37,448 nt of DNA. It comes from an uncultured bacterium. GTDB taxonomy: Bacteria > Cyanobacteriota > Vampirovibrionia > Gastranaerophilales > Gastranaerophilaceae. Location: the NCBI GenBank assembly GCA_902803165.1, contig CADCOS010000032.1, positions 1 to 37,448 on the forward strand, given 5' to 3'. The translations under genes and the position numbers were made by a program. Shown one piece after another: positions 7,480 through 9,440 of the stretch (positions within the stretch are counted from its first letter, which is position 1; the number at the start of each line of letters is the position of its first letter). Under the pieces are notes generated by a model. The model had not been told where the DNA came from. It did no database searches and saw only the letters and a list, made by a program, of their open reading frames with translations.

Positions 7480-7541
7480 CCAATAAGCTTTTAAAACTTT
7501 TATTGTGAACTTTTGTAAAAAAAATGTTACTTATTGTTATA

Positions 7542-7626
7542 TATAATTTATTTTGTGGAATTCAGTATATGTAAGCAAGAGCAAGGATGCCGCTTTCGTC
7601 TAGGTTAATAATTTTAGAACGGGGTG
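7542..7626 (+). promoter_or_regulatory. Flagellin promoter -10 box and leader with a CsrA-like site
   Basis: TATAAT at 7542-7547 is the best -10 box, with no convincing -35 and no clear sigma-28 consensus. The predicted leader of about 80 nt contains CAAGGATG (7582-7589). This matches the core of the CsrA SELEX consensus (CARGGAUG), with the AGGA exposed as the loop of a short GCA/TGC stem. A GGGGTG ribosome binding site ends the leader. Confidence 0.5.
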
Positions 7627-7632
7627 AACATT

Positions 7633-8493
7633 ATGGCTCTTACAATTAACACAAACATTTCAGCATTAGTAGCACAAAAAAATCTTAACAACGCTACTAC
7701 ATCTTTAAATCAAGCTATAGAAAGAATGACAACCGGCTACAAGATTAATCATGCCGGAGATAATGCTGCAGGTTATTCTATTGCTAGGAGATGGGAAACA
7801 CAACTGGGCTCATTGGATGTTGCTGCTGATAACGCTGCTACAGGTGCAGATATGCTATCTACACTGGAAGATAACTATTCTCTTATCTCAACACACTTAC
7901 AGCGTGTCAGAGACCTAACTGAACAAGCTGCAAACGGGACTTACGGAGCAGATTCTTTAGCGGCAATAAAATCTGAAATAACTGCCAGACTTGATGAAGT
8001 AACCCGTATCTCCAGCAACTGTGAATTTAACGGCAAAGACCTCATGTCCGGCGCCGGTACTGCTATTAACATTCAAGTTGGAATTGACAGCACCGCAAAC
8101 AGCAGAATTACGCTTGAAGCTTCCATGACAGCTGCGGCTGACTCCGTAACATTGTTCAAAGCTAAGGATAATTCTTTGACCTCAATTGATGCAATCGCCA
8201 CTAAAGCATCAACAGGAGATCCGTCAACGATGCTTGGAACAATTGACAATGTTATGAAAACTATTTCGGAAAGAGTTACCAAACTCGGTGCGGCACAAAA
8301 CAGAATTGATTCTGCTATTGAATCTATTGCCGTTCAGTCCGAAAACGTAACTTCGTCTCTGTCCACACTTAGAGATGCTGATATCGCATCGGAATCATCT
8401 AAATACATACAATCACAAATTTTACAACAAGCTGCCGCAACGCTTCTTTCTACTGCTAACCAATCACCTAGCATTGCATTGAACCTTATTTAA
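7633..8493 (+). CDS. fliC: Flagellin
   Basis: This is the filament subunit of the bacterial flagellum, exported through the flagellar type III apparatus. The start at ATG 7633 gives the canonical N-terminus MALTINTNISALVAQKNLN and is 7 nt from GGGGTG; an upstream GTG (7624) is less likely. The 286-aa protein has the N-terminal D0/D1 helices (residues 1-140), a short variable middle of about 60 residues and the conserved C-terminal D0 (DADIASESSKYI, ILQQAAATLL, SPSIALNLI). A short central domain is common in minimal flagellins. One Cys (near residue 134) is unusual for a flagellin. FliD is encoded downstream, and a FliA-type sigma factor lies at 29901-30752. Confidence 0.96.
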   Translation: MALTINTNISALVAQKNLNNATTSLNQAIERMTTGYKINHAGDNAAGYSIARRWETQLGSLDVAADNAATGADMLSTLEDNYSLISTHLQRVRDLTEQAANGTYGADSLAAIKSEITARLDEVTRISSNCEFNGKDLMSGAGTAINIQVGIDSTANSRITLEASMTAAADSVTLFKAKDNSLTSIDAIATKASTGDPSTMLGTIDNVMKTISERVTKLGAAQNRIDSAIESIAVQSENVTSSLSTLRDADIASESSKYIQSQILQQAAATLLSTANQSPSIALNLI

Positions 8494-9187: not shown

Positions 9188-9284
9188 CAGTGCGTATACA
9201 GTATAGAAAAGGTAGTGTTGAAAAATTTGCCGTCAGGCGTTAATTATATATTAGTGTGGAAACTAAAAATAGGAGGAATTCCAA

Positions 9285-9440
9285 ATGAACGTCACAAAAG
9301 TAGAAACTAAAAAAACGGTGAAATCTGCATTTAATGATGAATTTGAAAACTACCTAAAAAAACAGCAAGTTAAAACAACTTTTAACGGAACAGAAGTTGA
9401 ATCATTTTCTTGGTACAGAAAAGCTCTAGGCTTAGCTTAG
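9285..9440 (+). CDS. Unknown 51-aa protein in the flagellar segment
   Basis: This short gene is supported by a promoter, an ideal AGGAGGA ribosome binding site 8 nt before the ATG, and a strong terminator 24 bases after the stop. The protein is basic at the N-terminus (MNVTKVETKKTVKS), has a charged helical middle (NDEFENYLKKQQVK) and ends in WYRKALGLA. There is no Cys, signal peptide or membrane segment. I know no family for it. Its leader resembles the flagellin leader, and it sits directly upstream of fliD, so a role in flagellar regulation or chaperoning is possible but unproven. Confidence 0.75.
   Translation: MNVTKVETKKTVKSAFNDEFENYLKKQQVKTTFNGTEVESFSWYRKALGLA

Follow-up and report, generated by a model that had tools for sequence, protein, structure and literature searches.

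The flagellin gene of the window (the whole 37,448-nt stretch of DNA analysed here) carries in its leader a hairpin that we consider, with a probability of about 0.7, to be the upstream binding site (BS1) of a CsrA-FliW circuit for flagellin homeostasis, although CsrA probably controls this particular paralogue less strongly than its siblings. Circuits of this kind are known from Bacillus, Campylobacter and Clostridioides. If the assignment is true, the range of the CsrA-FliW flagellin circuit takes in the flagellated sister lineage of the cyanobacteria, and these gut bacteria probably limit flagellin output through conserved RNA elements in the leaders of their flagellin genes. A literature search returned no full-text match for CsrA with Melainabacteria, and a search on Gastranaerophilales, CsrA and FliW gave no paper with Gastranaerophilales among the matches listed.

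The window site and its position in the leader

The source genome is a Candidatus Gastranaerophilales (Melainabacteria) metagenome assembly (1.78 Mb, 177 contigs), and the nearest flagellins among named records were mostly from Ca. Gastranaerophilales or gut bacteria. A scan of the whole window against Rfam matched a tRNA and no leader family. The features of the flagellin gene and its leader are as follows.

7536-7562, + strand: promoter-like element, GTTA (7536-7539) and TGTGGAATT (7554-7562), 18 bases start to start, shared by leaders of the genus
7573-7595, + strand: hairpin GCA-AGGA-TGC (7581-7590), the putative upstream CsrA site (BS1), which an outer stem may extend (AAGC 7573-7576 with GCTT 7592-7595); supported by the local fold and by family conservation, absent from the full-leader fold
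7591-7626, + strand: predicted hairpin over most of the Shine-Dalgarno sequence, found in both the 85-nt and the 98-nt fold
7621-7627, + strand: GGGGTGA, the Shine-Dalgarno sequence, presumably complementary to 16S rRNA, without GGA (the lone case among 59 comparable leaders)
7633-8493, + strand: flagellin gene, 286 aa, with Flagellin_N and Flagellin_C domains; start codon ATG 7633, in frame with the GTG at 7624 given in the open reading frame list

A preliminary description of this DNA had pointed to CAAGGATG at 7582-7589, flanked by GCA and TGC in the flagellin leader, as a match to the core of the CsrA SELEX consensus. The sequence is as described (7581-7590 reads GCAAGGATGC, which encloses the octamer, and AGGA occupies 7584-7587), but the count of such octamers is at chance level: CARGGATG occurs twice in the window against 1.04 expected, and at least two copies were found in 26 of 100 shuffles. 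We therefore rejected octamer statistics as sole proof of a site and gathered flagellin leaders from the same genome, from the genus and from named records. In that comparison it is position, not the octamer, that raises the window site above chance, its ANGGA lying 29 nt downstream of the start of the upstream element while most sibling sites lie at 25-32 nt.

A covariance model of the site ranked the window copy third in its own genome with an E value of about 1, the window site itself being among the sequences used to build the model. We also tried this model (R1) in a regulon search and rejected the outcome, as the 11 matches in the source genome (best E 0.5) were indistinguishable from chance. 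One of them, C120:11297, sits before a second flagellin gene that is cut by the contig end, so the model does recover a sibling. Another truncated flagellin gene of this species is on C159.

The upstream element is inferred to be a promoter. TGTGGAA was present in 59 of 105 flagellin leaders, with GTTA 17 or 18 bases ahead of it in 55 of these 59, and the arrangement GTTA-N13/14-TGTGGAATT has the appearance of a late flagellar promoter for these bacteria. It precedes many flagellin genes of the genus, and occurs in the window also at 9239-9261, before the open reading frame at 9285 that precedes fliD, and near an FlgN gene (L136); L135, L138, L139 and L140 are further loci where it was noted. 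A sigma-54 promoter was rejected as the meaning of TGTGGAATT, since no Sigma54_DBD was found in the genome. GTTA-N-TGTGGAA showed no numerical excess across the genome, where it and the reversed pattern each matched 12 times, and at least four of its 12 matches precede flagellin-like genes. The location of the promoter-like element 5' of the BS1 hairpin argues, suggestively, against a transcription start downstream of 7589. A second class of flagellin leader (L016, L063, L069, L083, L122, L125 and L127) does not contain TGTGGAATT and often has (A)TACAAGGATATGTGA, TTAGGGA and GAAAGGTTAG.

Hairpins in flagellin leaders of the genus and the order

The leader sample was drawn from the source genome, 57 more genomes of the genus and named records. 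We dropped tblastn matches that started after residue 12, had no ATG within 60 nt or had less than 60 nt upstream, and merged identical 100-nt leaders, which left 105 distinct leaders. Hairpins with a GGA loop (score of at least 10) were found in 67 of these 105, compared with 9.2 +/- 2.8 in dinucleotide shuffles and with 11 of 95 control leaders, taken from non-flagellin genes of the same loci (open reading frames of our own selection, with flagellin-like proteins excluded by short motifs). Of the 59 leaders that share the TGTGGAA element, 58 have an ANGGA between positions -62 and -21 relative to the start codon.

To align the sites we anchored each leader on the first A[AC]GGA that follows the TGTGGAA element, a choice blind to pairing; six of the 59 leaders contain no A[AC]GGA, and the remainder gave 40 distinct sites. 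Covariation was scored on an alignment (A1) of 39 of these, with the minus-strand locus L018 left out. Because the leaders are mutually related, the shuffle counts overstate significance and are not probabilities: the total stem length of the 40 sites was 133 against 100.9 when the 3' arms were redealt (reached in 0 of 1000 shuffles), the covariation score of the 39 sites was 0.222 against 0.131 (0 of 500), and 37 of 500 shuffles attained the observed number of further pair types, one measure of covariation. In the same 39 sites, 70.3% of cells were paired in the true register against 22-38% in slid registers, and all five stem pairs vary on both sides, with G-U pairs included. The A-N-GGA loop is invariant in the genus sites and the arms are variable, which, judged from the alignment, is how an RNA loop that a protein recognises would look. 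The preliminary description had suggested looking for conservation of the motif upstream of orthologous flagellins, and this expectation was borne out for orthologues and paralogues alike, with compensating changes in the stem.

The closing pair of the genus hairpin is C-G in 31 of 39 sites and the second pair is mostly G-C (27 of 39). Folding of whole leaders gave a BS1 closing pair probability above 0.5 in only 33 of 57 (the L017 row of this accessibility set is meaningless, as its anchor took the wrong GGA; the actual L017 hairpin appears in a separate fold), and RNAalifold found no consensus structure in a mixed alignment of 22 leaders (A2, in which L017 is misplaced). A third GGA lies between BS1 and the Shine-Dalgarno sequence in 41 of the 59 leaders, and 36 of these 41 place it at a distance of 17-18 nt to the Shine-Dalgarno GGA. 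At L061 and L107 the 3' arm of BS1 can pair instead with a downstream repeat that holds this middle GGA, and two mutually exclusive hairpins may compete there. Flagellin genes of the genus also form tandem arrays of up to five consecutive copies (G037:C21:10328-15199 and others).

A comparable site is carried by leaders outside the window's family but within the order. Of 30 distinct leaders from these other families, 24 have an ANGGA 22-55 nt upstream of the start codon (a site by our definition was not found in the other six), and 21 of these 24 sites have at least two contiguous pairs. The stem is mostly UAC/GUA (C-G in 17 of 24, A-U in 20 of 24 and U-A in 11 of 24), and the sequence UACARGGANGUA precedes the Shine-Dalgarno GGA by about 20 nt. 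All 30 leaders have a GGA near the start codon, and the GGA-GGA spacing is 19-22 nt in 21 of the 24.

The genes for the proposed regulators are present in the source genome. The preliminary description had proposed a search for csrA and fliW and regarded absence of csrA as a refutation; both were found, 12 nt apart on the same strand of a contig other than the window's. At all 47 loci analysed fliW immediately precedes csrA, 30 in the genus (the remaining 24 of 54 genus csrA matches had no locus) and 17 in other families. Within the genus, csrA was detected in 54 of 56 genomes and in all 36 with at least 90% completeness and at most 5% contamination. Across 40 genomes of the order, flagellin was found in 22 and csrA in 18; the genomes with fliW were exactly those with csrA, and neither gene occurred in any of the 18 flagellin-free genomes. 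Within the family to which the window belongs, 17 of 17 sampled genomes from other genera (G058-G096) had no flagellin, csrA or fliW and are thus a natural control; as read from gene content, these genera lost flagella and CsrA together, which suggests that CsrA here chiefly serves flagella. Four genomes had flagellin without csrA or fliW (G062, G076, G077 and G089, which are 78, 91, 66 and 89% complete). The site is kept in leaders of G076 (L172, L195) and G089 (L180), so a contig with csrA and fliW is likely missing from those two assemblies; it is not kept in G062 (L184) or G077 (L188).

We compared the CsrA sequences encoded at L001:1501-1836, L142-L170 and L200-L216. Residues R6, A36, R44, L2, E46, V/I51 and N55, which the excerpted accounts assign to RNA contact or FliW contact (PMC6692469, PMC7829508), were kept in 47 of 47. 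Proteins of the genus have a long tail; 29 of the 30 measure 107-115 aa, and the remaining frame 127. They differ from those of other families at position 4 (I in 29 and V in one, versus L in 17 of 17), position 33 (A in 30 of 30 versus G in 17 of 17) and position 37 (D in 30 of 30 versus P in 17 of 17). In the lineage with I/V4, A33 and D37 the second stem pair of the leader went from A-U to G-C. These changes amount to one evolutionary event, so co-evolution of CsrA with the stem pair is only a suggestion.

Folding of the window leader and alternative readings

A 33-nt local fold contains the BS1 hairpin at -4.9 kcal/mol (z -0.22), so it has no unusual stability. In a 98-nt fold of leader and early codons the GCA-AGGA-TGC hairpin had a probability of about 2e-5, since 7586-7589 is taken up in a pairing with 7629-7632. 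Presentation of AGGA in a hairpin loop, as originally described, thus held for the local fold and failed in that of the full leader, where the BS1 closing pair is 0.00 and the GGA is unpaired at 0.35; the geometry is possible, yet disfavoured by the predictions. Siblings from the same genome, on contig C120, have the hairpins CATCC-AGGAA-GGATG and TATGC-AAGGAAC-GCATA (the latter read by eye), and both their leaders have a GGA at the Shine-Dalgarno sequence. The second CsrA-type site over the Shine-Dalgarno sequence, which is usual in leaders of this type, is absent from the window leader. The window copy looks like a weakened member of its family.

This weakening raises the question of whether the window site is a remnant, in a paralogue that has left the circuit, with BS1 too weak and translation set by the Shine-Dalgarno hairpin. 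Such an account would explain why the window leader is alone among 59 comparable leaders in lacking GGA from the 20 nt that precede the start codon, why its Shine-Dalgarno region is the least accessible of 57 (unpaired 0.09, median 0.92) with the BS1 hairpin missing from the full-leader ensemble, and why the 85-nt fold (z -2.48) is more stable than 200 of 200 shuffles. However, GCAAGGATGC retains the CsrA core at a sibling-like spacing from the upstream element, siblings with the same three-pair stem (L064 and L116) likewise fold poorly (closing pair 0.01 and 0.17), and the folding predictions disregard co-transcriptional folding and ribosomes. We regard a remnant as credible but unlikely. It is far less probable that CsrA activates the window gene, BS1 binding preventing the pairing of 7586-7589 with 7629-7632 and opening the start region, as reported for the activation of E. 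coli ymdA by CsrA (excerpt of PMC7652899). The full-leader fold does pair part of the site with bases just 5' of the start codon, but when we forced the BS1 hairpin the Shine-Dalgarno sequence was still buried (unpaired 0.17 versus 0.16) because a separate hairpin covers it.

An equally improbable alternative is that the inverted repeat acts in DNA, as an operator or part of the promoter, and is no RNA element. Its near-constant distance from TGTGGAATT would fit this, but an operator would retain its arms, and here the loop is invariant while the arms vary, with pairs changed on both sides and G-U pairs among them; leaders of other families, moreover, keep the loop, and the upstream element is not visible in those listed. 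We thus retain the reading of the window hairpin as BS1 of a CsrA-FliW circuit. With BS1 weak, the Shine-Dalgarno site lost and the Shine-Dalgarno sequence buried, control of the window gene by CsrA is uncertain and probably weaker than in siblings.

The proposed circuit and known systems

Sequence comparison established the two genes, their linkage and co-occurrence with flagellin, a leader hairpin that covaries, and another GGA far enough from it to suit a CsrA dimer. The conservation and covariation of the hairpins, the adjacency of csrA and fliW and their co-occurrence with flagellin make a circuit of the Bacillus and Campylobacter type very likely in these bacteria; CsrA binding, repression and relief by FliW are inferred by analogy. 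CsrA would bind the ANGGA hairpins of flagellin leaders and in most of them bridge BS1 to the Shine-Dalgarno GGA, blocking ribosomes, until flagellin export frees FliW, which would then remove CsrA. The homeostatic circuit that the preliminary description envisaged is thus supported by the genes and the leader family, and less so by the window leader, which has no second site and in whose full-length fold BS1 is unformed.

Where a genome has some ten flagellin genes whose leaders are graded, it would become testable whether CsrA decides the choice of flagellin. A more speculative extension, which we hold doubtful, is that a single CsrA (I/V4, A33, D37) co-evolved with the rewritten hairpin and governs flagellins graded from three GGA sites to one, so selecting those that build the filament. 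The window gene would then lie at the escape end of the series, its BS1 perhaps bound without shut-off.

In B. subtilis, CsrA occludes the Shine-Dalgarno sequence of the flagellin (hag) mRNA and FliW relieves this, and there, as here, fliW adjoins csrA (excerpt of PMC6529632). The CsrA of the genus, known from sequence, differs from that of B. subtilis in its 107-115 aa length with a long tail and in I/V4, A33 and D37. The C. jejuni flaA leader, regulated by CsrA and FliW, has a GGA-GGA spacing of 21 nt, and 18 nt is quoted as the optimum (excerpt of PMC4894983); the distance of 17-18 nt from the middle GGA to the Shine-Dalgarno GGA in the genus is close to this optimum. The genus resembles C. 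jejuni further in having ANGGA hairpin loops over the ribosome-binding site as well as 5' of it, in compensatory changes across species, and in the presence of csrA with fliW (PMC4894983, same excerpt). Unlike C. jejuni flaA, it has many flagellin paralogues per genome with variant leaders, a third GGA between the two in 41 of 59 leaders, and, in the window gene, no second site. The UACARGGANGUA of other families matches the core of the CsrA SELEX consensus RUACARGGAUGU (as quoted in the excerpt of PMC7652899). The genus retains the closing C-G pair and the ANGGA loop of that consensus, and differs from it in a second stem pair that is mostly G-C and not A-U.
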